From: Fluviicola sp. XM-24bin1
GTDB taxonomy: Bacteria; Bacteroidota; Bacteroidia; Flavobacteriales_D; Crocinitomicaceae
NCBI GenBank assembly: GCA_003149635.1
Contig: QCWI01000003.1
Span: forward strand, 248,001-312,000
Reading direction: 5' to 3'
DNA: 64,000 bases
The notes beneath the pieces were generated by a model. That model worked only from the letters and a program-made list of their open reading frames with translations, searched no databases and was not told the origin of the DNA. Shown piece after piece: positions 32,801-52,981 of this stretch (position 1 is its first letter; every line of letters starts with the position of its first letter). The translations under genes and the position numbers were made by a program.

Positions 32801-33006
32801 TCGGTTGTCTTCCAAGCGCCACCTCCAGTAGAACCCATATAGTAGGTCAAAGGATCACCCTTCACACCTGAGACTGCCACGGATCGACCGCCTCGAAAAG
32901 GGCCAATGCTTCTGAATTTTGTTGTTTGAAAAACAGTATCAAGAGATTGGGAGAAACCGGTTAAACTTCCGAGTGAAAAAAGAAGGAGTAAAATGAATTG
33001 GCGCAT
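29878..33006 (-). CDS. Large secreted Asp-box/sortilin-type propeller protein 1
   Basis: 1042 aa with signal peptide ([20 protein letters not shown]). About ten Asp-box-like motifs of the S-x-D-x-G-x-T-W type are spread over residues 40-700 ([54 protein letters not shown] and others), as in VPS10/sortilin and BNR-repeat glycosidase-like propellers. A C-terminal beta domain and a helical section (about 900-1030) follow. No T9SS tail is seen. Its paralogue lies divergently 146 bases away. Annotation of such proteins as glycosyl hydrolases rests on the fold only. The role is unknown; secreted peptide or glycan handling is possible. Confidence 0.82.
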
Positions 33007-33031
33007 AATCCTTTGGATTTTGAAAGGAATT

Positions 33032-33061
33032 CAAAGATAATCTTCTGGAATATCAATCAAA
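33032..33061 (-). promoter_or_regulatory. Candidate promoter of propeller gene 1
   Basis: On the minus strand a TTTG (33058-33061) lies 18 bases before TATCTTTG (33032-33039), close to the full Bacteroidota -33/-7 consensus. It is 25 bases from the ATG at 33006. Confidence 0.55.
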
Positions 33062-33106
33062 AACCGTCTGAATAGAGAAATCCCCGATGACGGAAATTCG
33101 ATATGA

Positions 33107-33114
33107 TACTTTTG
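33107..33114 (+). promoter_or_regulatory. Candidate -7 element of propeller gene 2
   Basis: TACTTTTG matches TAnnTTTG, 38 bases before the ATG at 33153. The -33 element is unclear. Confidence 0.35.
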
Positions 33115-33152
33115 GCAATTAGTTAACTTAGATAACTATCTAAACTTATCTT

Positions 33153-36100
33153 ATGCTAAGAATTACTAGAATTACGGGATTTCTCCTGATCGCCGTAAGT
33201 TTAACTTCTACAAGTTTCGCACAAACGGACAAGAAAGAAGAATCCAAAACCAATTTCGGCGGATTGAAATTCCGAAGTATCGGCCCAGCTCTAATGTCAG
33301 GACGTATTTCAGACATCGCGATTCATCCAAAGAATGACAATGTCTGGTACGTGACTGTGGGTTCAGGAGGTGTATGGAAAACGGAAAATTCCGGAACTAC
33401 GTGGAAATCATTGTTTGATGGACAGAAAAGCTATTCCATCGGATGTATCACTCTTGATCCTCAGAATCCTGAAGTTGTTTGGGTAGGAACTGGAGAAAAC
33501 AATGGCGGTCGACACATAAGTTATGGTGATGGCATTTACAAAAGTGAAGACGGAGGAAAATCCTGGAAGAATATGGGATTGAAGGCTTCGGAGCACTTAT
33601 CCAAGATTATCATTCACCCGACGAATTCTGACATTATGTGGGTGGCTTCTCAAGGGCCGCTTTGGAGTAAAGGAGGAGAGCGTGGAGTCTACAAATCTAC
33701 TGACGGTGGAGAAACTTGGACGCGAACCCTCGGTGACGACGAATGGGTTGGGGCGACAGACATGCTCATCGATCCGCGGAATCCAGATGTTTTGTACGCT
33801 GCAACTTGGCAACGCCAAAGAACCGTAGCTGGATATTTGGGCGGAGGGCCAGGAACAGCCATCTATAAATCAACGGATGGTGGAGACAACTGGGACAAAC
33901 TTACTAATGGACTACCTTCCGGAAATCTTGGTAAAATCGGATTGGCACTTTCCCCTCAGAAGCCGGATGTAGTATATGCGGCGATCGAAATGAATCGTAG
34001 AACGGGAGGAGTGTATAAAAGTGAAAACCAAGGTGGTTCTTGGACGAAAATGAGCGATGCCGTTGCCGGAGGAACAGGGCCACATTACTATCAGGAACTT
34101 TGGGCATCTCCTCACAATTACGGCGAATTATACCTGGCGAATAATTATATGCTTGTTTCTTACGACGATGGTAAAACATTCGAGTACATGAACGAAAACG
34201 AAAAGCACGTCGACAACCACGCCGTGGCATTCAAGCCGAACGATCCGAATTACATTTTGGTAGGTTGTGACGGAGGTTTGTACGAAAGTTTTGACCGAAC
34301 AAAGAACTGGAAGTTCATTGACAATTTACCGATTACGCAGTTCTACAAAATTGCGGTAGATGATGCCGAGCCGTTCTACTTTGTATATGGCGGAACGCAG
34401 GATAACAATACTCAGGGAGCACCCTCAAGAACAGATAATGTACATGGAATTCGTAACTCCGACTGGTTTGTGGTTTTGGGTGGAGATGGCCATCAGCCTG
34501 CCACAGAACCCGGAAATCCAAACATTGTTTATGCTCAGTGGCAGCAGGGTAACCTGAATCGACACGATCGGTTGACTGGAGAAAACGTGTACATCCAACC
34601 GCAATCAGCGCCGGGTGAAAAGAACGAACGTTTTAACTGGGATGCCCCTATTTTAGTAAGTCCTCACAATCCAAAGCGTATTTATCATGCATCGCAACGC
34701 GTTTGGATGTCCAACGACAGAGGAGATTCATGGACAGCCATTTCTGAGGACTTGACCAATAATGTAGAACGCATTCAAACGCCTTTCTTTGGTGAGAAAC
34801 AGAAGTGGGACAATCCTTGGGACATTTATGCAATGTCAAATTACAGCACAATCACTTCATTGTCTGAATCTCCGGTAAAAGAAGGATTGATCTATGCTGG
34901 AACGGACGACGGAATCATTCAGGTGACAGAAGATGGAGGCGCGAACTGGAGAAAGGTAGATTTCTCAAGCATCAAAGGTCTTCCGATAACAGCATTTGTG
35001 AATGACATCAAAGCGGATATGTACGATGAGGATGTCGTGTATGCCGTATTCGACAATCACAAGTATGGAGATTACGAACCGTATCTTTTCAAAAGTTCCG
35101 ACAAAGGAAAAACGTGGGTGAGTATTTCGAACAATCTTCCTGAAAGAACGCTCTTGTGGCGCATCGTTCAGGATCATGAGAAAAGTTCATTGATGTTCCT
35201 AGGAACGGAGTTCGGAGTGTATGCGACAATAAACGGAGGCGATTCATGGTCGAAACTAAAAGGTGGAATGCCGAATATTTCTGTTCGTGATTTGGGGATA
35301 CAGAAACGTGAGAACGATTTGGTCGCTGGAACCTTCGGACGCGGAATTTACATTTTGGATGATTACTCGTCATTACGTTATTTCGATGAAGAAAAAGCTG
35401 AAAGCGAAGCTTTATTATTCGAACCGCGCCCTGGTGATTGGTACATGCAAAAAAGAACCTTAGGCGGCGGTCGAAAGGCATCGCAAGGGGATAACTTCTT
35501 CGTGGCAGACAATCCTCCGTATGGTGTAGAATTCACGTATTATTTGAAAGAAGGATACAAATCCATGGAGGCGAAGCGTAAGAAGAAGGAGAAGGAAATT
35601 GAGAAAGACGGAGGGACTGTTGGTGTTCCGGATTGGTCTGTATTGGAAGAGGAGAAGAAAGAAATCAAGCCGAGCGTTTGGTTGTTTATCTACGACTCTG
35701 AAGGCAAAATTTTACGTAAGTTGAAAGCTTCCAACAGTAGTGGTTTCCACCGTGTGAGCTGGGATTTGGAAACAGATGCGAAGTCGACAATTACCGCTGA
35801 TAACATGAAGCGCGATCGGACAGGGTATCAAGTTGGGCCGGGGAATTACTCTGCGCAATTGCACAAAAGAATCGAAGGGGCATACACGGCCATCGGAGAC
35901 AAAGTTGATTTTAAAGTAGAGCAATTGGGTCAAGGGGCATTGGAAGGAAGTACTCCTGACGAAGTAGTGGCGCATTGGAAAAATATTCAAGCGGTTCGTA
36001 GCGAAATGTATGATATGAACTTGGATATGAGTGAAGCAGAGGACAACATCAGTGCTATGTTGAAGGCATACGAAAGAGCTGATGCCAGCGACCCAGAATT

Positions 36101-36398
36101 GCACCAACAACTGTTAGATCTTCGCGATCAAATTTTGGATTTGAAACAACAAGCCAGAGGCAGCAGAACGCGCTCGGAAGTTGGAGAGAAAAGCGAATAC
36201 AAGACGATGGGCGATTACATTTGGCACGCGAGCAACTATGGTTCAACGTACGGGCCAACAGCGTCGCATTTGCAATCATTGGAGCACGCAAAAACCTTGA
36301 TGGGTCAAGTAGCAGCTAAGTTGCAGGAAATCAAAAATGCCTTGGCACCATTGGATCAAAAACTCGAAGCGATTGGCGCACCGAAGGTGAAGAAATAA
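33153..36398 (+). CDS. Large secreted Asp-box/sortilin-type propeller protein 2
   Basis: 1081 aa, paralogue of the divergent gene at 29878-33006. Both begin the mature region with FRSIGP and carry Asp-box repeats in the same order (KTENSGTTW, KSEDGGKSW, KSTDGGETW, KSTDGGDNW, KSENQGGSW, VTEDGGANW, KSSDKGKTW, ATINGGDSW). A signal peptide is present (LLIAVSLTSTSFAQ). The C-terminal half has a charged lysine/glutamate-rich segment (about 808-835, KRKKKEKEIEKDGG) that the partner lacks, then a helical region. No T9SS tail. The matched pair suggests tandem duplication with inversion and perhaps paired function, but the substrate is unknown. Confidence 0.82.
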   Translation: MLRITRITGFLLIAVSLTSTSFAQTDKKEESKTNFGGLKFRSIGPALMSGRISDIAIHPKNDNVWYVTVGSGGVWKTENSGTTWKSLFDGQKSYSIGCITLDPQNPEVVWVGTGENNGGRHISYGDGIYKSEDGGKSWKNMGLKASEHLSKIIIHPTNSDIMWVASQGPLWSKGGERGVYKSTDGGETWTRTLGDDEWVGATDMLIDPRNPDVLYAATWQRQRTVAGYLGGGPGTAIYKSTDGGDNWDKLTNGLPSGNLGKIGLALSPQKPDVVYAAIEMNRRTGGVYKSENQGGSWTKMSDAVAGGTGPHYYQELWASPHNYGELYLANNYMLVSYDDGKTFEYMNENEKHVDNHAVAFKPNDPNYILVGCDGGLYESFDRTKNWKFIDNLPITQFYKIAVDDAEPFYFVYGGTQDNNTQGAPSRTDNVHGIRNSDWFVVLGGDGHQPATEPGNPNIVYAQWQQGNLNRHDRLTGENVYIQPQSAPGEKNERFNWDAPILVSPHNPKRIYHASQRVWMSNDRGDSWTAISEDLTNNVERIQTPFFGEKQKWDNPWDIYAMSNYSTITSLSESPVKEGLIYAGTDDGIIQVTEDGGANWRKVDFSSIKGLPITAFVNDIKADMYDEDVVYAVFDNHKYGDYEPYLFKSSDKGKTWVSISNNLPERTLLWRIVQDHEKSSLMFLGTEFGVYATINGGDSWSKLKGGMPNISVRDLGIQKRENDLVAGTFGRGIYILDDYSSLRYFDEEKAESEALLFEPRPGDWYMQKRTLGGGRKASQGDNFFVADNPPYGVEFTYYLKEGYKSMEAKRKKKEKEIEKDGGTVGVPDWSVLEEEKKEIKPSVWLFIYDSEGKILRKLKASNSSGFHRVSWDLETDAKSTITADNMKRDRTGYQVGPGNYSAQLHKRIEGAYTAIGDKVDFKVEQLGQGALEGSTPDEVVAHWKNIQAVRSEMYDMNLDMSEAEDNISAMLKAYERADASDPELHQQLLDLRDQILDLKQQARGSRTRSEVGEKSEYKTMGDYIWHASNYGSTYGPTASHLQSLEHAKTLMGQVAAKLQEIKNALAPLDQKLEAIGAPKVKK

Positions 36399-39903: not shown

Positions 39904-41130
39904 CTAATAATGTACATCCCAGCGGTTGCGCTGATCCTTATAGAATCCCATTTCGTCACGGATGTGACGTTTTGCTTTTCCTTCGCCGCTATTTAAAGCA
40001 AGATTCGAAAGACCGTCACACTTATTGAAGTCCGCTTTCCACATGTACAATTCGGCAAGATTACACTGAAGCATCGCCGTTACTTTATCATTGATGCGCG
40101 ACTTCTTATCTCCGATATTGGACTCCGTCAGGATGGTTTCAATAGCGTTAATCGCCGTGTTGATTTGTGTGATGGCTCCTGAACGATCGCGATCAGAACC
40201 TACAGCCTGCAATGCCAATGTTGTTTGCGTAAATGCGTTGGTTACATCCGTGTAGTCGTATACTTTGAATGATTTCACTGAGTAAATCTCTGCAGTACGA
40301 TTGCGCTCAACAAACCCGAAATGGTTGTTCAAATGATCGTTCAATTGGGAAATTGCGCTGTTTCTTCCCGCAGTTTCCATCTGACGGAAGATGGTTTCAC
40401 GGTTGTCCTTCATGTACAATTGATGATCGTATTTGCTCTTCTGAGATGCCATGTTGTAGGTTCTTTCTCCCTCAAACAACATCGTTTCCATCATAATTCC
40501 TTGAGTTGGATTGGATACTCTCAAACCAATTGGCATTACGTATCGCGCAGAGTACTCATATTTCGTAGAAGCTCCAGTTCCTTTTTTCGATTCTACAATG
40601 CGGTAGCTGCGAATGGGGTGAATGGTAACCGTGATTTCTACTTCTCCTTCTCCACGGGTATATCCTGCCAAATCAATACGGTCAATCGCAAGATTTTCTT
40701 GGAATTCAGAGTGCATCATGGGTGACTCTGTTGGATCCATAACCGGTGCTGGCGGATAGATTGGAGCGGCAGGCTGTGCAAGCTGTGTTCCATCTGGATT
40801 GGTTGTTCCGGCATTTACCTTTTGCTCCCAAGAGGACATTTGTGCCAAGTAGATGCGATCCAAAGAATCGCGCTCTCTGTGGTATCGCTCAGATGCCTGC
40901 ATGAACAGTTCCATGGCCACACTTTGACGTGCATCGAACATAACCGTGCTGTCTTCATTGGCCTGACGGTACGCATGCTCCACTTTTACGATGTAGTTAT
41001 CGTATTGGGTATCGATTTTCAGCAACGGAAGCTGGATATAATTGAAGGTAATTTTGTGGTCATTGATGTTCTGACCAAACGACACTGACCCTGTAAATAG
41101 GAGTGCAGAGGCAAGTAGTATTCGTTTCAT
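39904..41130 (-). CDS. Secreted or periplasmic protein of unknown function
   Basis: 408 aa with a clear signal peptide (MKRILLASALLFTGSVSFGQ). It contains a helical stretch (about 60-110), a proline/alanine-rich spacer (about 110-135, QPAAPIYPPAPVMDP), a beta-rich middle and a helical C-terminal part (about 290-400) that may include TPR-like helix pairs. It has no T9SS tail and no recognised family. The single-gene unit has its own terminator. Confidence 0.65.
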   Translation of the reverse strand: MKRILLASALLFTGSVSFGQNINDHKITFNYIQLPLLKIDTQYDNYIVKVEHAYRQANEDSTVMFDARQSVAMELFMQASERYHRERDSLDRIYLAQMSSWEQKVNAGTTNPDGTQLAQPAAPIYPPAPVMDPTESPMMHSEFQENLAIDRIDLAGYTRGEGEVEITVTIHPIRSYRIVESKKGTGASTKYEYSARYVMPIGLRVSNPTQGIMMETMLFEGERTYNMASQKSKYDHQLYMKDNRETIFRQMETAGRNSAISQLNDHLNNHFGFVERNRTAEIYSVKSFKVYDYTDVTNAFTQTTLALQAVGSDRDRSGAITQINTAINAIETILTESNIGDKKSRINDKVTAMLQCNLAELYMWKADFNKCDGLSNLALNSGEGKAKRHIRDEMGFYKDQRNRWDVHY

Positions 41131-41228: not shown

Positions 41229-42578
41229 TCAATGGTAGAGGCGGTTCGCGATGCGATGACTCCAATTTTCCTCTTTTTTGAACTCTGCAAAAAGGAAGGT
41301 GATAACCACACTAAATTCGATGATGATCCACCAAAGTGGTTCTTTGAAAGTTGCTCCGTAAGCAAGATACGTTCCGAAAATGAGCACTGACCAAATTAAT
41401 GGATAGATCTTTTTCGAAAGGATAGCTAATGGAATGAGCACCGTCACATACCATGGATGCAAAATCGGGGTAAAGAGGAAATACGTAGTGAAAAGTAAAA
41501 GCGCCGTGGTTGCGACGTCTGCCTTTTTGAAGAAAGTAATCCAGATCATGATTCCCGCCGAAATAAAAGGGAAGAACAAACTGATCCAAGCAGAAATGTC
41601 AGCTCCTGAAATCAAGAGCACGAGTTCTTTCAAACTGTAATAGATTCCCGTATTAAAGCTGAACCAGGCAAAGAACAACCCAACGCTTGCTTTGAAATTG
41701 GCGAAGGTTCCCAAATCCACGTAAATGGCAAAGAGACCAATGCTTGCGGCTACCGCCACGGTACAATGAATCAACCAACGCTTCCAGTCCAGATGTTTGA
41801 AAAAGGCTCCGAGCATGAGCAATGGCGTGAGTTTGGTCATGACGCCGAGAGATACGACCAATGCTGCGCCAATCCAATGATTGATATGCGCTAGGTACAA
41901 GGCAAGTACTATGAAGGTGATAGCTAAGGCCTCCAAATGCAGGTTTCCGGTGAGTTCGATGATAATCAAGGGATGGAGCCAATACAATGAGAGCCAATTG
42001 GATCTATTTTTCGATGTAAGTAGCGCCTTCAGCAAGAAGAACGTGGCAATTTCGGCTATCAAAATCCAAAGGCGGAGAAGATCCAGGTTTGTTCGTTCTG
42101 GATTGCCTCCCATAGCGCTCGTTTGAAAGACAAATTGATTCACCGTAGGATAAATGGAATAGTAGTTTTTCGAATTCATTCCATCCGGAAACTCCATCGT
42201 TCCTTGGTATTGCAACATCTGCCGGTACTTTTCCTGATGTTCTTCAGAAACATGCTCGTCGTAGTCGTTCGGAACAAAACCAAAAACTTCGTAGCCATCT
42301 TTGCTCAGCTCGCCATCCCATAGGAACCGAAAATAATCGTCGGAAAGATGTGGCGTTGCAAAAAGGAAACACAAACGGAAAGCCAGGCCGGCGGCAAAAA
42401 GCCACATCCATTTTTTTGGTGCAAAGCGATGCATGATCAGCCAGAGTGCCACCAACGTAGCGAATGAAATGAACAATTCCAGATGTTGCGTGCGTTGGAA
42501 TTCCTGGGCAAAAAGGAAGTAAAGTAAGGCGGATGCCATTGCGAAAATCCAAAAACCGTATGTTCGGATTAACGCCAC
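41229..42578 (-). CDS. GT-C-type membrane glycosyltransferase (fourth gene of coupled operon)
   Basis: 449 aa with ten or more membrane helices. The first outer loop carries LFATPHLSDDYFRFLWDGE, an acidic motif after helix 2-3 as expected for GT-C enzymes using a polyprenyl-phosphate sugar (mannosyltransferase-like). IYPTVNQFVFQ is the second conserved loop. The start is a GTG at 42578 that overlaps the GT2 stop by ten bases; an ATG 39 bases downstream is the alternative. It would add a sugar on the outer side of the inner membrane. Donor and acceptor are unknown. Confidence 0.75.
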   Translation of the reverse strand: MALIRTYGFWIFAMASALLYFLFAQEFQRTQHLELFISFATLVALWLIMHRFAPKKWMWLFAAGLAFRLCFLFATPHLSDDYFRFLWDGELSKDGYEVFGFVPNDYDEHVSEEHQEKYRQMLQYQGTMEFPDGMNSKNYYSIYPTVNQFVFQTSAMGGNPERTNLDLLRLWILIAEIATFFLLKALLTSKNRSNWLSLYWLHPLIIIELTGNLHLEALAITFIVLALYLAHINHWIGAALVVSLGVMTKLTPLLMLGAFFKHLDWKRWLIHCTVAVAASIGLFAIYVDLGTFANFKASVGLFFAWFSFNTGIYYSLKELVLLISGADISAWISLFFPFISAGIMIWITFFKKADVATTALLLFTTYFLFTPILHPWYVTVLIPLAILSKKIYPLIWSVLIFGTYLAYGATFKEPLWWIIIEFSVVITFLFAEFKKEENWSHRIANRLYH

Positions 42579-44020
42579 TGGAAGGTTTGATTTTTAAAGA
42601 ACAGTGACAACGAGAATCCTGTTAGAATGATCAATGCGTAGGCGATAATCATGGCGTTCATGGTTTGGAAACCAAGGTAAATCCAATATCCACCATATCC
42701 CCAGCAGATGATCTCTAGGAATTTGATGCTGTATTCTTTCTTGTAGTCGTAACCACTTTTGATTTTCTTGGCAACGTTCTCCTCCCCAAATTTTGGTGTT
42801 CGCACGAATGGAGATTTCTTCCCCCAATACCCTTCCATCACGCCGAAACTCATGTAGAGCGAAATACCAGTTGTCATGGAGAAGAAGGTGAACAAGGAAG
42901 GAATATACCAAAGCAATGCGTTCAACTTATTACGATTGGCAATTAACGATCCCGCTAGGAAAATCAAGAAAAGGGAAGCACTTACAACTGGCCCAATAGG
43001 TAAGAAGTATTCGTAGTTAGGAAGCGTTACCAGATTTTCACTCTGTACGTAGTACACAAAAGGACTCAGCAGCAACAACGCAACTACCAATAGATACACC
43101 GAGCTGTTCAAAAGATGGAACGACCCCATTACCTTCGATCCAAAATTCACAGACGATTTCCAGAGCATTTTCCAGTTTTTACGGACACATTCAGCAGCCC
43201 CTTTCGACCATCGGAATTGTTGAGTTCTGTATGCCTCAAACGTAGATGGAAGTTCTGCTGGTGAACCAACATTGAACAAATATTCAAACTGCCAACCTTT
43301 CGCCTGAGCACGGAAACTTAGATCCAAATCTTCCGTTAAGGTATCGGCCTTCCAACCACCGGCAACTTCAATACACGCCTTGCGCCAAACGCCTGCGGTA
43401 CCGTTAAAATTGATGAATCCTTCCGCGTTGTGTCGACCCAATTGCTCCACACTGAAATGCGTATTCAACATCAATGCTTGCGCACGCGTGAGCAAGGATT
43501 GCTTCTCATTGATATGCAGCCATCGCGTTTGAACCACTCCCACTTTCGGGTTTTGAAAATGCGGAATGGTTTCCATCAAAAACTCAGGTGCTGGAACGAA
43601 ATCCGCATCAAAAATGGCTACAAATTCACCCTTTGCAAATCCCAATCCATAGGCGAGCGCTCCCGCTTTGAATCCAGATCGATCATCACGTCGCACCAAA
43701 TCAAAATTGCACTGATGCTTTTCAATGTATTCGCGGATGGTTTCTGTGGTTTCATCGGTAGAATCATCCAGAATTTGAACTTCGAGTAGATGCTCTGGAT
43801 AATCGATGTTTCGAATGGAATCCAGAAGACGCTCAATCACGTACTTTTCATTGTAAAGCGGAAGTTGAATAGTCACCATGGGAAGGTCTTCTACGGAAAC
43901 CTCAGGCTTCTTTTTCTTTCGCTTTCGTAATGCGTTCATGACTAGAATTCCTTCATGCAGGACGTGCAACATCAATAAAATGTTGATTACTAGCCAAATA
44001 ATAAAAATCGCATTAGACAT
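42569..44020 (-). CDS. Processive-type family 2 glycosyltransferase, membrane-bound (third gene)
   Basis: 483 aa from the ATG at 44020; the frame runs further upstream, but this ATG overlaps the exporter's stop by eight bases and gives the usual N-terminal helix. The cytoplasmic GT-A domain has LPLYNEKYVIERLLDS, the D of LDDSTDETTETI, DADF, TEDLDLSFRAQAKGW and the QQFRW motif of cellulose-synthase-like enzymes. Helices flank it, four of them C-terminal. A PilZ domain is absent. It probably transfers a sugar to a lipid or polymer at the inner membrane. Located between the exporter and GT-C genes. Confidence 0.88.
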   Translation of the reverse strand: MSNAIFIIWLVINILLMLHVLHEGILVMNALRKRKKKKPEVSVEDLPMVTIQLPLYNEKYVIERLLDSIRNIDYPEHLLEVQILDDSTDETTETIREYIEKHQCNFDLVRRDDRSGFKAGALAYGLGFAKGEFVAIFDADFVPAPEFLMETIPHFQNPKVGVVQTRWLHINEKQSLLTRAQALMLNTHFSVEQLGRHNAEGFINFNGTAGVWRKACIEVAGGWKADTLTEDLDLSFRAQAKGWQFEYLFNVGSPAELPSTFEAYRTQQFRWSKGAAECVRKNWKMLWKSSVNFGSKVMGSFHLLNSSVYLLVVALLLLSPFVYYVQSENLVTLPNYEYFLPIGPVVSASLFLIFLAGSLIANRNKLNALLWYIPSLFTFFSMTTGISLYMSFGVMEGYWGKKSPFVRTPKFGEENVAKKIKSGYDYKKEYSIKFLEIICWGYGGYWIYLGFQTMNAMIIAYALIILTGFSLSLFFKNQTFQWR

Positions 44021-46181
44021 TGGCGTCAAAAATACTATTTCGATCTGTGAATAAGGCCAATAAGAAGGCATCAAATACAAAGGCCACGGCGATTCCAATC
44101 AAAAAGGCCCAGCCGAAGGGTTGCACCCAATCGTATCCTGAGAACAAAAACGCTCCGAATCCAACCGCCAAAACAACGGAAGTAACAGCAATGGGATACA
44201 GCGATCCTTTCGATGCTGCATCTCGGTGCAGTAACAAATAAATGGAATCATCGACGCACAATCCCATGATGACGGTGAAGAAGAAAAGCGAAATCGGATT
44301 TAGGTCGCTGCCGAATAAAATCATGATCAACAACGCGACAATCAATGGGAGGGAGTTGGCTAAAAGCGTTGCAAGGAAGATGGTGAAGTTGCGCACAAAA
44401 ACAAAGGTGATGAGCGCTCCGAAAAGAATGCTAATTAAGATGCCGAGCAATATGTTCTCCGAGAAACGTTGGGTAGTGGTATCGTTGTGATAGGCCACTC
44501 CAGATAATGACGCGGTGAGTTCTTTCGGCGGCGGATTCTTCTTGAGGAAAGTTTCCATATTATCCCAACTCACCAGTGCTTCGTCTAGGTCGAAATTCGA
44601 GAAACTGAAGCGAATGCGTGCTACACCTTTATCGTGCCGAACGATATTGTCGCCACCCAATAGCTCCATATTGTTGAGAAACAAACTGTCGTATTCAACG
44701 GGATACGAAAACGCTCCGGGATGTCCGTTGCGTTGGAATCTATGGTAGCGTTTGGCCAAAATCGTAGGACTGGAAATCACCTTAATTGGAAATTGTTTGT
44801 GCATTTCTACTTCCAGTTTTTCGAGATATGCCATCGATTTGGGGTTCCACAAATCCGAGGGTTGATTGTATGTGAAATGGATCGTTCCCGTCTTATCGCC
44901 GAAGAAATGATCGCCCATAATATCCACAGCTTCGAAAGCAGGATGATCACCTTCCGTCACGTACGGGACGTTGTTAATTGTGCTTTTGTTCCAAACTAAA
45001 ATAGCGAGTAGCACTGCGATAACGCCCGATCCAGCCAGCAACCAATATCGTTTGGATCGCCAGCGTTCCACATATTTTGAATGAAAATGATTCCATTTCG
45101 AGCCTGTTCCTTCCTTCAAAAGACGCATGTGCGGAGTAAGCAATCGGATGGCAACGAAACGCGATGTCAAAAAAGCAAAAACAACCCCGACAATGGACAA
45201 CAGTGAAATATCAGTAAGTGTCGGACTGTCGGATAAAATGAGAAAAAGAACGAATCCCACCATGTTCGTGAGCGAGGTCAACATCATAGGTCGATGCAGA
45301 GATTTTCCCAGTTGTTTACGCAATTCCGCTGGCGAACTTGCAGTGCTTCGTAATTTGTGATGCGTGTAGGTGAGGTGCATCAAATCCGTGAAGGAGAGCA
45401 CAATCAACATACACGGAATGGCGACCATATGGAGAGAAAACCACATATCCGTGAAATACACGAACAAGGTCGTTAGCGACAAACTGAAAATGATCATGGA
45501 AGCAATGAAGAGCAAACCTCTCAATGACCCGGTAAAGATCAAGAAGAGCAAAAGGATAATGGCAAAACTAATCGCGCTCAGGATCAAGGTTTCTTGCTGA
45601 TTGTCGGCGCGAAGTTCATTTTCAATGGCGAAATAATCCAAGGGCAAAACGGTTACCTCCTCGTGATGCATTTCCTGATCAAATACCTGAACGTTGGCAT
45701 CTGAATACTTATCAGACGGAACAAAAAGCAAGGCGTATTTTCGGTTCTTCGAAAGAAATTTTCTTGTAATATCTTGGAAGGCATCCGCTCGTTGATACCA
45801 TTTTTGAAAGCGCGCTTCCGACTCCAACGGAACGAAATTCTTTTTTCGGATACCAAGGAACGTTTGAACAGGAAAGGGAACGTTGGTGATGCTCAGTGTT
45901 TGTAGTGAATCGTTGACGTGCCACCATTTTGTCGCACGATCCATCCATTGAAAATCTTCGTAGCGCTCCCATTTTTTATCGTGCTTGAGCACCAAAATGT
46001 TTATGGGATATCCGTTGCTCTCGAAATTGGCCTCAAAAGCTTCTAATTCCAATCGATCTTCTTCGGGAATTAAGGTATAAGCATCCGGATTGCTTTGAAA
46101 GGGAATCTCGGGAGCGAACCACATGGCGAGGGCAACACAGAGCACGATAATCGCATACCAAATCCACCGCAGTTTATCCAT
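44013..46181 (-). CDS. RND/MMPL-superfamily exporter (second gene)
   Basis: 722 aa, twelve membrane helices in two halves, each with one helix, a large outer loop (about 30-195 and 405-560) and five helices. SFTDLMHLTY in the first half and GLCVDDSIYLLLHRD in the second are the paired helix-4 motifs of MmpL/HpnN-type lipid exporters, with acidic residues for proton coupling. Unlike drug-type RND pumps, there is no adjacent membrane-fusion or TolC-like gene. Export or periplasmic extraction of a lipid made by the neighbours is the natural reading (inference). Overlaps both neighbours by eight bases. Confidence 0.85.
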   Translation of the reverse strand: MDKLRWIWYAIIVLCVALAMWFAPEIPFQSNPDAYTLIPEEDRLELEAFEANFESNGYPINILVLKHDKKWERYEDFQWMDRATKWWHVNDSLQTLSITNVPFPVQTFLGIRKKNFVPLESEARFQKWYQRADAFQDITRKFLSKNRKYALLFVPSDKYSDANVQVFDQEMHHEEVTVLPLDYFAIENELRADNQQETLILSAISFAIILLLFLIFTGSLRGLLFIASMIIFSLSLTTLFVYFTDMWFSLHMVAIPCMLIVLSFTDLMHLTYTHHKLRSTASSPAELRKQLGKSLHRPMMLTSLTNMVGFVLFLILSDSPTLTDISLLSIVGVVFAFLTSRFVAIRLLTPHMRLLKEGTGSKWNHFHSKYVERWRSKRYWLLAGSGVIAVLLAILVWNKSTINNVPYVTEGDHPAFEAVDIMGDHFFGDKTGTIHFTYNQPSDLWNPKSMAYLEKLEVEMHKQFPIKVISSPTILAKRYHRFQRNGHPGAFSYPVEYDSLFLNNMELLGGDNIVRHDKGVARIRFSFSNFDLDEALVSWDNMETFLKKNPPPKELTASLSGVAYHNDTTTQRFSENILLGILISILFGALITFVFVRNFTIFLATLLANSLPLIVALLIMILFGSDLNPISLFFFTVIMGLCVDDSIYLLLHRDAASKGSLYPIAVTSVVLAVGFGAFLFSGYDWVQPFGWAFLIGIAVAFVFDAFLLALFTDRNSIFDANV

Positions 46182-47190
46182 CGCTCATCAATTTTTCAAG
46201 GAATGGAATCACGGATTGCGCAATTTTCTTGTGGCCTTTCGCATTCGGATGACTGTCGTACGGCAAATGTGTGTACTTTTTACTCTTGAATGAGAATCCG
46301 ACGTTGAGCCAATGGCTCATTTTCAGTTGCTTTTCCAAGGCTTTCGTTTCGTGATTGGAATCCAGACAAATGACTCCAAATGCAACGCCTTTTTTATCAC
46401 AAAGATCTTGCATTTCCTTGATGAGACTTGCCGTCACCTTGATCGGATCGCAATCCGGTTCCTTGCTTTTGTCGCGGAGGTTTTGTAGCAAATTGATCGA
46501 AGCCGACCAGTATCTACCCGGAATTTCCGAGTACAAATCTTCCCATTTCGCGTGCTTAACCTTGCCAGATGTATTATCGAAATAAGGGAATCGTGCCCCA
46601 TTCATTCTGTCGTCTACATCAGATGACGATCGGCGGTATCCAATGCGCAAATTGGCGCGGTAATTCTGAGATAAAACCGTTCGAATGAAATGTACAGAGG
46701 AGAGGCAAAGCACTACGCATTCGGGCGTCTCATTTATAAGTCGTTCTCGCAATTGAAGCAGATGTTGCGCTGTACCGTATCCAACTACAGCTGCATTTTC
46801 AACCTTCCAATCGTGATGTTTTTTTTGCGTGATGGCGGTGAAAGATTCATTGTCATTTACCCCATATCCGTAGGTGTAGGAACATCCTAGAAATAAAACT
46901 TTATTGATGCATGCTTCAAATTTTTTTGGGATGAATCGTTGTCCGTTTTCTTGATGCGTCGCTTTGAATTTTACTTTTTTGTTGAGTTTCAATCGATATG
47001 TTCCGGGGTTGAGTTGAATCCCTAGGTTCGCGTCGGCGACATACGGATTTTTTGGTTTGGAAACGACTTCATAGTCCGTATTTGCGTAAGGACGGTATCC
47101 CATGATCCAAAGCAATCCTTCGAGCAATGCGAAGGTAATGACGGAGTAGATCAGTGTATATTTCAGTCCGGAGACGAAGCGCTTTTTCAC
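46174..47190 (-). CDS. Membrane-anchored SGNH/GDSL hydrolase or acyltransferase (first gene)
   Basis: 338 aa. One N-terminal helix (YTLIYSVITFALLEGLLWIMG) is followed by a periplasmic SGNH domain: block I FLGCSYTYGYG (serine within G-C-S-Y-T), block V DSHPNAKGHKKIA giving the Asp and His of the dyad. Such anchored SGNH domains often acylate or deacylate glycans and lipids. The start is GTG at 47190, next to a candidate promoter whose predicted start site is at or beside that GTG. It leads the operon and overlaps the exporter by eight bases. Confidence 0.78.
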   Translation of the reverse strand: MKKRFVSGLKYTLIYSVITFALLEGLLWIMGYRPYANTDYEVVSKPKNPYVADANLGIQLNPGTYRLKLNKKVKFKATHQENGQRFIPKKFEACINKVLFLGCSYTYGYGVNDNESFTAITQKKHHDWKVENAAVVGYGTAQHLLQLRERLINETPECVVLCLSSVHFIRTVLSQNYRANLRIGYRRSSSDVDDRMNGARFPYFDNTSGKVKHAKWEDLYSEIPGRYWSASINLLQNLRDKSKEPDCDPIKVTASLIKEMQDLCDKKGVAFGVICLDSNHETKALEKQLKMSHWLNVGFSFKSKKYTHLPYDSHPNAKGHKKIAQSVIPFLEKLMSDG

Positions 47191-47959: not shown

Positions 47960-48619
47960 ATGGCGACCAACGTAAAAGAGAACTACCTCAAGGCAATATT
48001 TTACCTCGACAAGGAGGATCCCAACATTTCGTTATCCGATTTGAGTAAGGAAATGGGCGTGAGTATTCCGACTGTGAACAGCATGGTGAAGCGCCTGCAA
48101 GAGGAAAAGTGGGTCGTGTATCAGAAGTACAAACCACTCAAACTCACGGCAAAAGGACGCAAGACGGCCGCATTAATCATTCGAAAGCACCGACTTACTG
48201 AAATGTTCTTGGAGAAATTCATGGGATTTGGATGGGAAGAAGTACACGATATTGCCGAAGAAATTGAGCACGTACGCATCGAAAAATTTTTCGATCGTAT
48301 GGATGAGTTGTTGGGCTTCCCAGCAATGGATCCACATGGATCGCCGATCCCGGATAAAGACGGGAACATCAAACCGCGCGATTTCAAAGTCCTATCGGAT
48401 ATAGAAGCAGGGAAGGTAGTTCGAATAAGTGCTTTGAAAGAGAGCTCGCAGGAGTTTTTGCATTATCTCAACCGCCAGCAAATCAAGTTGGGAACAGTCA
48501 TGGAAGTCATACGCATCGAAGAGTTTGACAAAAGCGTTCAGGTGCAATTGAAAGAGCAACCGAATCCGATGGTGTTAAGCGCGGATGTTTCGAGTCGCTT
48601 GTTGGTAGATATTCTTTAA
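47960..48619 (+). CDS. DtxR/MntR-family metal-dependent regulator
   Basis: 219 aa. A winged helix (1-65; SLSDLSKEMGVSIPTVNSMV) is followed by the dimerisation and metal-binding region with HRLTEMFLEKFMGF, EEVHDIAEEIEHV and DPHGSPIPD. A C-terminal FeoA/SH3-like domain covers about 140-219 (LGTVMEVIRIEEF). These proteins bind Mn or Fe and then repress uptake genes. The feo operon is 26 kb away and no metal transporter is adjacent, so its targets are unknown. It is followed by a tandem heptamer repeat. Confidence 0.9.
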   Translation: MATNVKENYLKAIFYLDKEDPNISLSDLSKEMGVSIPTVNSMVKRLQEEKWVVYQKYKPLKLTAKGRKTAALIIRKHRLTEMFLEKFMGFGWEEVHDIAEEIEHVRIEKFFDRMDELLGFPAMDPHGSPIPDKDGNIKPRDFKVLSDIEAGKVVRISALKESSQEFLHYLNRQQIKLGTVMEVIRIEEFDKSVQVQLKEQPNPMVLSADVSSRLLVDIL

Positions 48620-48757: not shown

Positions 48758-51367
48758 CTACTTTAACTCCAATCGAATCACCGCATTTGGTGTAATTCCG
48801 AGAAAGTATTTATCAATCGCAAAGGCGCGGATTTCAATGTCTCCGTTTTCCTCCACTTCTTCCAATTCGTAGCGTCGACTCAGGATGTTTAGTTTGTTAT
48901 AGACGTTATAACAAGAGGCTCCCATTTTCAGATTCCAACGTTTATCTGGGTTGTTGAGAATGTTATAAAAGATGGTCACATCTAGCTGGTGAAATGGGCT
49001 AAATCGTGAACTATAAGCGGATTGATATTGAATCTCGTACGCGTCAATGCCATCTACTGGATCACCCAATAAGGCTACCTCACCTAATGCAGTGTACGGC
49101 ATGCCCGTGGCAATTTTTAATGCTGCTGAGAATTCGAAATTGCGCCATTTCAACGAATTCCCCCAACGGAACATATGCGGTTGATTGAATGGTGCCACAA
49201 AAGATTCTTCCGAAAAATCCAAGAAGGTATAATCCACCCTGCTATACGAATAGGAAATCCATGAGCGGAAGTTTTTCCAACGCTTCTTCACCAAAACATC
49301 AACTCCGAGCGATAAAGCGTCACCTCTAAGAAGTCCAGAGCTGAACGTAGGATTGTCGGAGAAGGAAACAATATTCAACAACTCTTTGGCATATCCTTCC
49401 ACTTCAACGAGCCACCCTTTCTTGTAAAACACAATTCCGAAATCGCCAATAAATCCGCGAACGACGGGAATTTCAGAAGTATCCGCCATGACCCAGACAC
49501 GGTTCGCTAATCCCAATTCGATATCGTCCAATTGATCGATTTGAGATACGAATTGATGTTGCATTCCAAACGCCGATTTGATCGTCCACGACTTATTGAG
49601 ATTGTACTGCGCATGGACACGTGGCTCCAAGTAGAATTGGTCGTCACCGGTAAAAAAAGATCCGCGAACTCCCGCTTTCAACAACCATTTCGACTTGCTC
49701 CAGATGTAGTTTCCGTTTACGCTGTGAATGACCGCCGCATTGGAACCAACAGAGCTTACGCTATCCACTTCTTCGTTGAATGAGATTCCGTAATCTACTT
49801 GATGTCGTGTCATCTGATACCCAAAATCGAAGGTATTGGAGGAGTCCAATTCGTAGGTTGTGTTAAGTTTTACGTCTATGTGGGAAATGAAGTTGGATTT
49901 GGCTTGCTGCTCATCGAAACTGACAGAATCATCGAACAATTCAAAATAGGACAGATCGAAATTGTAATCGTAATTAGTGGCGCTCATTTCTACTAAAGAA
50001 GCCCATTTTTCATTCCATGTGTGCTCGTATTTCAGGCCGATACCACGACTCGTTGAACTCACTACATTTGATAAAGATTCCCGATCGTTTCCATCTACAA
50101 ATTCGGTGAAATAATTCAACTCGTTATTTGCGAAAATCCCACTGATGGAGAGGTAATTGTTCTCGTTCGGCTGATAAATCACTTTCGCGTTGAGGTCTTG
50201 ATATACAAAATTGTTGACCGTTTGAAATTGTGTGGATGTCTCTCCAGGTTCGCCCTCTACAACTCCTTCATCTGAAAGCCCAATCGCTGTTTCTTGATAT
50301 ACACGATTGGCGTAGCTGTTGTAGGTGGGTGAAGGCCAAATGTTGAGGAAAGATCGTCGGCCCGATACCATCACGCCCAATTTTTCTGTGACTGGAGTTG
50401 CCAGATACAAATCGCTTTGCAAGAAGTTAACTCCTGCAGAACCGATCATTTTCGTTGGAACACGTTCTATGGAGTGCAAATCGATCAGTCCGGAGGCGCG
50501 ACCACCATAATAAGGGTCGTATACACCACGGTACAAATCCGCGCGATCAATGATGTTCGGATTGATGGATGAAATCATCCCATTAAAATGTCCGGGTTGG
50601 TACACGGGAATTCCATCCCACAGCAATTGATTTTGATCGGCCGTACCGCCCCGAATTTGAATTTCGTTTACCGTAGCGCTCGCCGAGTTAATCCCTGGAA
50701 CCGTTTGCACTAATTGGAAAATATCCGATTCTGTAGTTCCCGGAACCGAGCCCAGTTTGTCGGGTTCAATGCTCAGTGCAGAAGCCTCATCTCCTGTAAA
50801 CATTCCTTCAGTAAGGTATTCAACCACGACTTCCGGATAATCGATTAAATCGATGTCCAATTCGACGTTTGACGATTGCTTCAAACTCACTGCGGAAATG
50901 CGCTGCTTTTTATACCCCAAGGCTGAAATCTCTACCGTTGGAGGGTTGTCACTTTTATACTTTAAGGTGTAATTTCCATTGTAATCGCAATAGGCACCTT
51001 TCCGAGAATTCAAGATTCGGAGTTTGGCGTAAGGGATGGGATTTCCATCCGCATCACGAATCGTCCCAGAGATTTTCCATTCCACGCTGGAGGGCTGAAT
51101 GGAGTAGTAATTTCGCTTCACTTTCGCGAAAGTAAGCTCGGTATTCTTGAGGATGATTTTCAGCGCTTCATCGACCGAAACATTCGTGAAATTTGCGGTA
51201 ATGGTAACGGCTTCCACCAACTTGGGATCGTAGGCAAGTTTGATGCTATGTTCCTTCTCTAGATCATCTAAAACGCTTTCCAATGAGGCATTCGTATAGT
51301 TCCCCGAGACCTGTGCAGATCCGAATTTGACAACCAGCATAAGTAGAAGAACAAGAAGATATCGCAT
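48758..51367 (-). CDS. FecA-type TonB-dependent receptor with N-terminal signalling domain
   Basis: 869 aa from the ATG at 51367; a GTG at 51382 would add five residues before the signal peptide (MRYLLVLLLMLVVKFGSAQ). Domains in order: secretin/TonB short N-terminal (STN) domain about 22-90 (ASLESVLDDLEKEHSI), carboxypeptidase-regulatory-like about 95-180, plug about 200-320 (VNEIQIRGGTADQNQLLWDG), then the 22-strand barrel. Together with the upstream FecR and sigma genes, this is an outer-membrane receptor that should signal ligand binding to its anti-sigma factor. No SusD partner follows. The ligand is unknown (siderophore, oligosaccharide or peptide). Confidence 0.88.
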   Translation of the reverse strand: MRYLLVLLLMLVVKFGSAQVSGNYTNASLESVLDDLEKEHSIKLAYDPKLVEAVTITANFTNVSVDEALKIILKNTELTFAKVKRNYYSIQPSSVEWKISGTIRDADGNPIPYAKLRILNSRKGAYCDYNGNYTLKYKSDNPPTVEISALGYKKQRISAVSLKQSSNVELDIDLIDYPEVVVEYLTEGMFTGDEASALSIEPDKLGSVPGTTESDIFQLVQTVPGINSASATVNEIQIRGGTADQNQLLWDGIPVYQPGHFNGMISSINPNIIDRADLYRGVYDPYYGGRASGLIDLHSIERVPTKMIGSAGVNFLQSDLYLATPVTEKLGVMVSGRRSFLNIWPSPTYNSYANRVYQETAIGLSDEGVVEGEPGETSTQFQTVNNFVYQDLNAKVIYQPNENNYLSISGIFANNELNYFTEFVDGNDRESLSNVVSSTSRGIGLKYEHTWNEKWASLVEMSATNYDYNFDLSYFELFDDSVSFDEQQAKSNFISHIDVKLNTTYELDSSNTFDFGYQMTRHQVDYGISFNEEVDSVSSVGSNAAVIHSVNGNYIWSKSKWLLKAGVRGSFFTGDDQFYLEPRVHAQYNLNKSWTIKSAFGMQHQFVSQIDQLDDIELGLANRVWVMADTSEIPVVRGFIGDFGIVFYKKGWLVEVEGYAKELLNIVSFSDNPTFSSGLLRGDALSLGVDVLVKKRWKNFRSWISYSYSRVDYTFLDFSEESFVAPFNQPHMFRWGNSLKWRNFEFSAALKIATGMPYTALGEVALLGDPVDGIDAYEIQYQSAYSSRFSPFHQLDVTIFYNILNNPDKRWNLKMGASCYNVYNKLNILSRRYELEEVEENGDIEIRAFAIDKYFLGITPNAVIRLELK

Positions 51368-51383
51368 ATAGTCAGTCTGCACC

Positions 51384-52319
51384 TTAATCTATAACGACAA
51401 TAGTACCACTTTCTTTTGTGTATTTAAGTTGCATCGGGCCAAAAATGAGTGCTAATGCCTGATCTAGGTTATCGTGTGGGAACGCGCCATGATAGGTACG
51501 TCCGTTAATATCTGCTTTTACTTGAATTTTGATGGCATACTGTGCTTCGAGCTCTTCCAAAACATCTTGTAATGGAACCTCTTCGAAAGTACTGTAGCCC
51601 AATTGCCAATCCGGTTTCTCGTTGATTTCAGGTTCCCAGTTGTTCGCTAGGATTCCTTTGTTCATTCGGGCAGCCATTCCTTTGGTTAAAATGGTGCTTG
51701 CCCCTTTTGAGTCGGTCACGCGAACCTTACCCGTGTAACAAATGACCTCGGTTCTATCGTTTCGATCCAAAACATTGAATTGCGTTCCTAAAACCTCCAC
51801 AGTTCCGTGTTGTGTTGTTACGCGGAAGCGTTTTCCTTTTTTGACGGTAAAGAGAGCCTCCCCCTTCAATTCAACATTTCGTTCTTTTTTCCAACTTCCT
51901 TTGTTGAAGATAATGGAAGAATTGGCGTTCAAAGCCACGGTGGAATTGTCCGGTAATTTCACTTCTTTGCGCTCGCCATCCGCCACAGAAATGGTGGTGT
52001 TTTCAACGGCTGCGTCCCCAATTAAGAACAGGGATCCAATTCCGATCAAAACTAAAATACTGGCGGCAACTGCCAGGAATCGAGAGCGCGGCATTCCGAT
52101 AATTTTGGCCTTCGGAGGTGCGTTGCGTTTCTCTTTCAATCGCTCATAAGCAGCATCAGTGTCAAACGAACCGACTTCCAGTTGTTCTGAATATTCGGCT
52201 ATCACCTGATAGGAGCGGTACGCCTCCGATTGCTCGAATTCGATCCGTTCTTCCTCTGTTAGTTCCCCGGCAAGCCAGCGTCCTAATAGTTCGTCAGATA
52301 TGTCTTTTTCTTCTGCCAT
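51384..52319 (-). CDS. FecR-family anti-sigma factor
   Basis: 311 aa. A cytoplasmic anti-sigma part (ISDELLGRWLAGELTEEERIEF) leads to one membrane span (about 82-101), then the periplasmic FecR domain (ISVADGERKEVKLPDNSTVA) and a C-terminal DUF4974-like STN fold (VPLQDVLEELEAQYAIKI). It should hold the upstream sigma factor inactive until the receptor signals. 38 bases behind the sigma gene and directly before the receptor. Confidence 0.92.
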   Translation of the reverse strand: MAEEKDISDELLGRWLAGELTEEERIEFEQSEAYRSYQVIAEYSEQLEVGSFDTDAAYERLKEKRNAPPKAKIIGMPRSRFLAVAASILVLIGIGSLFLIGDAAVENTTISVADGERKEVKLPDNSTVALNANSSIIFNKGSWKKERNVELKGEALFTVKKGKRFRVTTQHGTVEVLGTQFNVLDRNDRTEVICYTGKVRVTDSKGASTILTKGMAARMNKGILANNWEPEINEKPDWQLGYSTFEEVPLQDVLEELEAQYAIKIQVKADINGRTYHGAFPHDNLDQALALIFGPMQLKYTKESGTIVVID

Positions 52320-52357
52320 TTGCTATTGAAACAGGTTTCTCTCAATAAACCCTACCG

Positions 52358-52879
52358 TTATTTTAATTCTTTTATCTTCGACCTCAATGTTTTGAGGGCT
52401 TTTCCCATTCGTTTTTCTATTGCTTTCACGCTCACACCAAGGGCTTCGGCAATTTCGTTGTATGTCATTTTATCGATGCGATTCATCAAAAACACTTCGC
52501 GTTGTGTTTCAGGTAAATCGGCAATTGCGGCTTCCAAACGCGCTTTAAATTCATCCTCTTCCATCTTAAACTCTGGTGTTTCGATGGTGGTATTCGCTGT
52601 CGGATTGGCATTCACGAATTTCAATCGCACCTTTAAGTGGGCCATTTCATTCTTGAAAGCATTCGTTGCAATGGTATAGAGGTAACTTTTGGCTTTGGAA
52701 GGGATTACTTTTCCGCAATTCTCCCAGAGTTTGATGAAGGCGTCCTGTACCAAATCATCCGCCTGCCCTTCTTCGCTCCCCCGATAAATGAGGTAGTTGC
52801 GAAGTGGTTTGGCCAGTTGCGTAAACAACCCGTGATAGGTCTCCTCAGCACATACGTTATTTTCTTCTCGCTCCGTCAC
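52358..52879 (-). CDS. FecI-like ECF sigma factor, start uncertain
   Basis: 173 aa if started at the GTG at 52879. Region 2 has EGQADDLVQDAFIKLWEN and region 4 LPETQREVFLMNRIDKMTYN plus the helix-turn-helix EIAEALGVSVKAIEKRM. The frame is open further to a TTG at 52981, but that extension (CEGEGEIHLITHTHTLTL) reads like translated repeats. No ATG start exists. The GTG lies inside the arm of a perfect hairpin (52877-52910), which may control translation. It is the first gene of the sigma-FecR-receptor set. Confidence 0.8.
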   Translation of the reverse strand: MTEREENNVCAEETYHGLFTQLAKPLRNYLIYRGSEEGQADDLVQDAFIKLWENCGKVIPSKAKSYLYTIATNAFKNEMAHLKVRLKFVNANPTANTTIETPEFKMEEDEFKARLEAAIADLPETQREVFLMNRIDKMTYNEIAEALGVSVKAIEKRMGKALKTLRSKIKELK

Positions 52880-52910
52880 GTGTTCAAAAGTACGAACTTT
52901 TGAACACGTG
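52877..52910. promoter_or_regulatory. Perfect palindrome over the sigma gene start
   Basis: CACGTGTTCAAAAGT (52877-52891), loop ACGA, and its exact reverse complement ACTTTTGAACACGTG (52896-52910). The proposed GTG start of the sigma gene is in one arm. It could be an mRNA hairpin masking the start or a binding site for a dimeric regulator. It is not followed by a T-run, so a terminator is unlikely. Confidence 0.7.
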
Positions 52911-52981
52911 TCCGGAAGAGTGAGAGTGTGCGTGTGAGTTATGAGGTGGATTTCCCCCTCGCCCTCACACTCTTTTCTCAA

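Follow-up and report, generated by a model that had tools for sequence, protein, structure and literature searches.

The window analysed here is a 64,000-nucleotide stretch of Fluviicola sp. XM-24bin1 (Bacteroidota; Crocinitomicaceae; contig QCWI01000003.1, positions 248,001 to 312,000). It contains a cassette of four minus-strand genes at 47190-41229 that encode, in that order, an SGNH/GDSL-type acyl-hydrolase or acyltransferase, an RND-superfamily exporter of the HpnN/MmpL sort, a cellulose-synthase-like GT2 glycosyltransferase with a QxxRW motif and a PimE/GPI-mannosyltransferase-like GT-C membrane glycosyltransferase (hereafter SGNH, RND, GT2 and GT-C). With a probability of roughly 0.57, the cassette serves to build a surface glycolipid or a short lipo-oligosaccharide, which would be begun in the cytoplasm, exported by the RND and modified in the periplasm. 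The observations behind this reading are the genes themselves, their families and intact motifs, a conserved gene order, clustering in trees and co-occurrence across genomes.

Conserved gene order in the family

All four genes overlap, as an earlier first-pass annotation made from the sequence alone had described. The SGNH gene (46174..47190, GTG start, 338 residues) and the RND gene (44013..46181, ATG start, 722 residues) share 8 bases (46174..46181), the RND and GT2 (42569..44020, ATG start, 483 residues) genes share a further 8 (44013..44020), and the GT2 and GT-C (41229..42578, GTG start, 449 residues) genes share 10 (42569..42578). The GT2 start is taken as the ATG at 44020; the mechanical list of open reading frames begins this gene at a TTG at 44098. 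The SGNH-RND overlap was measured in 11 cassettes with both genes on one contig and is exactly 8 bases in eight of them (the window, L003, L004, L188, L193, L180, L182 and L183), 4 bases in L065 and L195, and 11 or 17 in L066 depending on the choice of start.

A first single-sequence scan recovered two loci, and in a 150-genome sample of the taxonomic order (the order sample) the RND was matched below E 1e-50 in five genomes; the neighbourhoods revealed an SGNH-RND-GT2 string in two further genera and, in one more, RND-GT2. That search had suggested a cassette limited to close relatives, a view overturned by the divergent carriers found with an RND profile in 240 genomes of the family. The profile gave 24 matches at E 1e-70 or better. 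One of them, G140 (238.6 bits), has an isolated generic RND (L196) and was set aside, leaving 23 carriers. GT2 directly follows RND in 22 of the 23 (in G609 on a second contig, L270), and the contig of G564 ends before the GT2 position. SGNH directly precedes RND in 16 carriers (G000, the window's own genome; G124, G621, G635, G611, G617, G029, G086, G563, G564, G559, G618, G532, G573, where it is cut, G609 and G633); the remaining seven (G628, G612, G640, G619, G614, G631 and G149) encode it at another place in the genome. The genome-wide SGNH search covered 20 genomes, namely 18 of the carriers, all positive, and two non-carriers, both negative. The full four-gene order was found on one contig in six carriers, with RND identity down to 22%, and over two contigs in two more. 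Its conservation beyond close relatives, which the first-pass annotation had proposed to check, is evident from G611, G617 and G635, where the RND is 22-27% identical, and from a member of another genus, G609, where the order spans two contigs. The four-gene set is old.

Among 395 genomes of a class sample only G000 and G029 scored as members, both of which are in the query alignment, and among 20 loci examined from a phylum sample of 345 genomes there were the window itself and 19 loci without GT2 or SGNH. Generic RND relatives were considered as the same system and rejected: 54 loci (29 from the class search, in which 160 genomes matched, and 25 from the order sample) were inspected with flanks of up to 1.5 kb, some cut by contig ends, and 52 had no SGNH or GT2, one was the carrier G029 and one was G466 (L144), where SGNH stands beside RND with no GT2 within reach.

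The GT2s encoded beside RND lie on one side of a branch with 100/100 support (19 of 36 rows; 20 of 43 when rebuilt with later loci). Carriers entered the tree by their RND and the remaining GT2s by an adjacent GT-C, and this sampling may have missed unlinked GT2s of the same clade. The trees cover GT2s of at least 430 residues and GT-Cs of at least 400 after removal of near-duplicates, and L195 sits on a long branch. Because their order and overlaps are conserved, SGNH is kept even when unlinked and the GT2s form their own clade, the conclusion that SGNH, RND and GT2 belong together is supported. The four genes might instead be two modules sharing a transcript, with SGNH-RND handling one lipid and GT2-GT-C making another glycoconjugate. 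SGNH-RND without an adjacent GT2 in G466 fits this arrangement, as do GT2-GT-C pairs without RND or SGNH, which make up 15 of the 28 loci with a GT-C in the order sample. Against it, the GT2s beside RND fall apart from those of the free pairs, and the supposed break, between RND and GT2, falls at the junction that varies least among the carriers, which makes a two-module cassette improbable.

Predicted activities of the four proteins

The window RND matches MMPL (PF03176) above the cut-off (24.3 versus 20.5 bits). Its family profile (21 rows) matched HpnN (6wu0) best in the PDB at E 4.9e-18, followed by an NPC1-related protein (4.7e-14), MmpL5 (3.7e-13) and the first AcrB-type pump (3.4e-11), and the top folds retrieved with its structural model were MmpL5, MmpL4, Dispatched, MmpL3, HpnN and NPC1-type proteins. 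Aspartates D266 (transmembrane helix 4), D644/D645 (helix 10) and D704 (helix 12) are invariant in 21 of 21 sequences, and the model places D266 and D644/D645 on its fourth and tenth membrane helices, the positions expected of proton-relay aspartates. In place of the Asp-Tyr pairs described for MmpL12, the window RND has D266-L267 and D645-S646. The RND thus appears closer to HpnN, MmpL, NPC1 and Dispatched than to AcrB-type pumps, and transport of the lipid-export sort is predicted.

In the GT2, D85-D86, D138-A-D140, T229-E-D231 and Q267..R270-W271 (QQxRW) are invariant in all eight aligned members, which provides each signature (D, DxD, TED, QxxRW) of the cellulose-synthase-like GT2 superfamily. 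BcsA is the closest solved relative (E 4e-22), and ceramide glucosyltransferase was matched weakly (2.5e-6). Three specific identities were rejected on curated cut-offs: CelA (TIGR03030, 116.7 versus 699.1 bits), PgaC (114.7 versus 422.3 bits) and NodC, the marker of a Nod-factor-type pathway (TIGR04242, 40.1 versus 550 bits). Conceivably, the GT2 could work processively, both synthesising a beta-glycan and threading it across the inner membrane, so that the cassette would make a secreted or capsular polysaccharide esterified by SGNH, with RND and GT-C in supporting roles. CelA and PgaC are the models against which the GT2 scores best, and three residues shared by all eight aligned members, F405, T408 and K410, resemble the F-x-V-T-x-K gating loop of BcsA. 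Relatives of the SGNH also occur in loci that resemble surface-polysaccharide clusters by eye. The same scores lie far below the CelA and PgaC cut-offs, however, and the Pfam families listed for the window (25 of 60) brought no BcsB-, BcsC- or PgaA-like partner to notice. A self-threading synthase would also leave unexplained why GT2 follows RND in nearly every carrier, and QxxRW is found in non-processive lipid glycosyltransferases as well, of which the weakly matched ceramide enzyme is one. A polysaccharide product is on balance rather unlikely.

The window SGNH alone matched PF13472 only weakly (E 1.4e-4; 22.8 bits, below the 32.9 cut-off), and 13 of 15 aligned family members matched it (best E 4.6e-7). 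Invariant in 15 of 15 members are S104, G139, H167 and D312-x-H314-P-N, so that the block I serine (S104) and the block V aspartate and histidine (D312-x-H314) are present, the serine in a G-C-S rather than a G-D-S setting. The stretch taken for block III (GxND) ends in the invariant H167. The protein has a single N-terminal hydrophobic stretch (residues 11-31), and a membrane-anchored enzyme with a periplasmic catalytic domain is predicted.

The window GT-C by itself was matched by no Pfam family at 0.01, the GT87 model PF09594 included; this model matched five of the ten members of the GT-C alignment, with a best E of 1.8e-9. A search with the GT-C model (predicted local distance difference test, pLDDT, 81.5) using Foldseek returned PimE first, then GPI mannosyltransferase I and ALG3, and also ArnT, with probability 1.00, and GPI mannosyltransferase 1 was matched by profile (E 5.3e-7). 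Residues S79, D81, K249 and H374-P-W376-Y377 are invariant in 10 of 10 sequences. According to PMC12041525, PimE is a polyprenyl-phosphate-mannose enzyme that acts on a glycolipid and loses its activity on substitution of D58, K195 or W319. D81, K249, W376 and H374 are candidate counterparts of PimE D58, K195, W319 and H321/H322; D81 follows three hydrophobic stretches. The first-pass annotation had read the exporter as an MmpL/HpnN-type lipid exporter, the GT2 as cellulose-synthase-like with QxxRW and the GT-C as a polyprenyl-phosphate-sugar enzyme. Profile and fold searches agree with the first assignment, with MmpL3 and HpnN, the two structures it had named for comparison, among the top folds; the invariant motifs agree with the second, and the third can be narrowed to the polyprenyl-phosphate-mannose sort, nearest PimE, GPI mannosyltransferase 1 and ALG3.

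If the GT-C were instead a protein glycosyltransferase fed by an enzyme resembling dolichol-phosphate mannose synthase (DPM-like), GT2 would build a polyprenyl-linked glycan and SGNH would trim it. General protein O-glycosylation is described for Bacteroidota in PMC12871550, and oligosaccharyltransferases occur further down among the fold matches listed for the GT-C (the best 50 of 247). The top folds are lipid mannosyltransferases, no protein O-mannosyltransferase is among the best 50 of the 247 matches and a lipid-type RND would have no obvious place, which leaves protein glycosylation very improbable.

The presence of the GT-C varies among carriers. It is encoded beside GT2 in 8 of 23 carriers, six on the contig of GT2 (G000, G124, G621, G635, G611 and G617) and two on a second contig (G609, L270; G633, L271, where GT2 is cut by the contig end); two carriers (G564 and G618), cut by contig ends, were assigned to neither class and 13 are without it there. 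The GT-C family was found somewhere in all 23 carriers, and in 62 of the 150 genomes of the order sample by a less sensitive single-sequence query. In the first tree the cassette GT-Cs (6 of 39 rows) occupied one side of a branch with 100/98 support; in the rebuilt tree this branch holds 9 of 48 rows, namely eight cassette GT-Cs, including those of L270 and L271, and L269 (G621:C4, 9082-10446 in the locus), a stand-alone GT-C that is 48% identical to that of the window and has no adjacent GT2. Since the GT2s and the GT-Cs fall into clades of their own, the window pair is, as far as the trees indicate, not a recent transfer of the generic pair. The following points on the GT-C weigh against the glycolipid reading: the group is not exclusive, as L269 lies inside it; the 13 carriers without an adjacent GT-C have one GT-C match each; and the seven of those 13 placed in the tree (G628, G563, G532, G573, G086, G029 and G149) all fall among generic GT-Cs. 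The GT-C is therefore an optional member of the cassette, given that the remaining matches are generic where placed.

A string of DPM-like, GT2 and GT-C genes in Flavobacteriales (L071, L260-L262 and L264-L266) matches the cassette in the families of its GT2 and GT-C and in their order. Its two glycosyltransferases belong to different clades from those of the cassette, a DPM-like gene is part of the string, and the stretches examined show no SGNH or RND. The genome of the window has such a second GT2-GT-C pair at G000:C4 (L071, 7154-10413 in the locus), preceded by a DPM-like gene. Its product, which matches PF00535 as well as dolichol-phosphate mannose synthase (E 1.4e-6), might supply the donor for both GT-Cs. 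The L071 GT2 has 639 residues with a long N-terminal extension, as do those of L072, L082 and L260-L262 (622-639 residues). We know of no product assigned to the GT2-GT-C pair.

A carbamoyltransferase and comparable systems

A carbamoyltransferase gene is divergently adjacent to the cassette SGNH gene in G029, G086, G563, G564, G559, G532 and G609. G149 and G573 have it in the same divergent position next to an SGNH relative that is away from RND or at a contig end, and in G612 one small open reading frame separates it from such an SGNH. Overall, it lies beside SGNH in 10 of 23 carriers; both carbamoyltransferase domains were seen for G029. PF02543 was present somewhere in the genome in 23 of 23 carriers versus 45 of 217 other family members (Fisher 1.1e-14), in 18 of 18 versus 30 of 133 among genomes with completeness of 90% or more and contamination of 5% or less (p 8e-11) and in 14 of 14 versus 7 of 20 within the genus (p 1.6e-4), values that overstate the significance because related genomes are not independent. 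The carbamoyltransferase is likely a further member of the system that is absent from the window. For the window cassette itself it is only a candidate, because in this genome and its nearest kin the carbamoyltransferase lies in a separate cluster and belongs to another enzyme clade. Three small-gene proteins encoded beside carbamoyltransferases had no Pfam match. A 1066-residue protein beside the carbamoyltransferase of L228 (10577-13777) joins UbiA prenyltransferase, group-1 glycosyltransferase and GDSL-like domains by Pfam, and open reading frames in L225, L227 and L229 begin like it.

The first-pass annotation had called the four genes a complete plan for building, acylating and exporting a glycolipid or glycan. 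It was right in outline and is partly supported, and it was both incomplete and in part too wide: SGNH, RND and GT2 hold together by order, overlaps and clade, while a dedicated GT-C is present in a minority of carriers, a DPM-like donor synthase would have to be supplied by another locus, such as L071, and the carbamoyltransferase probably has to be added. Members of the set do, in part, occur with unrelated partners, as seen for the GT2-GT-C pairs and for the SGNH relatives in loci resembling, by eye, surface-glycan clusters. The substrates, sidedness, order of steps and product of the route that follows are what we infer. At the cytoplasmic face, GT2 would use a nucleotide sugar to initiate or extend a lipid-linked glycan, which in relatives, and perhaps here too, a carbamoyltransferase may decorate in the cytoplasm. 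The proton-driven RND would then carry the product across the inner membrane to its outer face, or further in the direction of the outer membrane. In the periplasm, GT-C would in some genomes attach another sugar, with a polyprenyl-phosphate sugar as donor (probably that of mannose, made by the DPM-like enzyme encoded elsewhere), and the membrane-anchored SGNH would add or remove an ester group.

Several points weigh against this route. The confidence of the RND model is low (pLDDT 64.6), and the best Foldseek E for GT-C is only 3.0e-3 with template modelling scores of 0.53-0.56 and no match at 0.001. To these are added the sampling of the GT2 tree, the non-independence of the genomes, the scatter of GT-C and the separate carbamoyltransferase of the window genome discussed above.

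The closest parallel is the lipooligosaccharide of Mycobacterium marinum. In PMC12507525, the authors infer that its synthesis is begun inside, followed by export through MmpL12 and final glycosylation outside; intermediates stay inside in the mmpL12 mutant, and attachment of the final sugar is placed outside. As inferred there, the system shares with the proposed route an RND for a glycolipid, early sugars added inside, a last sugar added outside and polyprenol-linked donors. It differs in being actinobacterial, the window RND is 11-14% identical to MmpL4 and MmpL5 in fold alignments, and the long coiled-coil insert of MmpL subclass 1 was not seen in the secondary structure of the window RND model. 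To our knowledge, no SGNH-RND-GT2 string is part of the mycobacterial system. The hopanoid transporter HpnN, the closest solved RND relative by profile, has 12 helices and two soluble domains in common with the window RND, and differs in length (877-883 versus 722 residues) and in that the partners in the window are GT2 and SGNH. PimE, a phosphatidylinositol-mannoside mannosyltransferase, is the best fold match of the GT-C, which has candidate counterparts of its catalytic residues, yet the GT87 model fails to reach the window protein. The rhizobial Nod factor system combines NodC, NodU, acyl-modifying enzymes and RND exporters, and so shares a QxxRW GT2, a carbamoyltransferase, an acyl-modifying enzyme and an RND around one lipo-oligosaccharide; it differs in the poor NodC score of the window GT2 and in the lipid-type RND of the window.

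The cassette can plausibly be described as an operon, found in one family of Flavobacteriales, that couples glycolipid assembly to an RND and may include a carbamoylation step. A more specific proposal can be offered only tentatively: that carbamoyltransferase, SGNH, RND, GT2 and, in some members, a dedicated PimE-like GT-C form a family-specific Bacteroidota system for making and exporting a carbamoylated, acyl-modified and mannosylated lipo-oligosaccharide, with the assembly logic of mycobacterial lipooligosaccharides or rhizobial Nod factors independently arrived at. The first-pass annotation had not recognised a named pathway, and none, nor any description of the cassette, was found in the open-access literature searched, within the terms used.

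Surroundings of the cassette and implications for the family

Upstream of the SGNH gene is a gap of about 770 bases, followed by a divergent MntR/DtxR-type regulator at 47960-48619. On the other side, 98 bases past GT-C on the same strand, a 408-residue protein without a convincing family match is encoded at 39904-41130; it occupies the same place in L003 and L004 and was not seen after GT-C in L188, L193 and L195. No membrane-fusion or outer-membrane-factor gene was found among the 25 of 60 Pfam families listed for 29 window open reading frames, nor in eight window open reading frames scanned singly. Just left of the window, the genome encodes a second, distant SGNH-family member (G000:C3:245894-246856, L154; E 2.9e-44), with no RND or GT2 within the stretch fetched. 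In seven of the 11 genus g1 carriers other than G000, G124 and G621 (L186-L189, L191, L192 and L194), a DNA polymerase I gene precedes the cassette, as determined by Pfam for L186 and by the same N-terminus for the others, and L193 probably belongs here too. SGNH and GT-C are present or absent by genome among the g1 carriers near DNA polymerase I.

Farther out, at 48758-52981, an apparent sigma factor, a FecR-type anti-sigma factor and a TonB-dependent receptor stand in a row, by eye and by a pooled Pfam scan; such rows are a common Bacteroidota set. Within 661-2564, a second sigma-factor-like gene adjoins an FGE-sulfatase-domain protein (661-2052) identified in the pooled scan, and two large divergent proteins of 1042 and 1081 residues at 29878-36398 look like the sortilin/BNR-repeat pair of that scan.

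If the proposed route is true, the cassette would provide a defined gene set for a surface glycolipid in Flavobacteriales and would offer a handle on the product of the GT2-GT-C pair. RND-coupled glycolipid export, best known from mycobacteria, would then extend to Flavobacteriales, and the link between genes and glycolipid would be testable by comparing natural carriers with non-carriers within one family.

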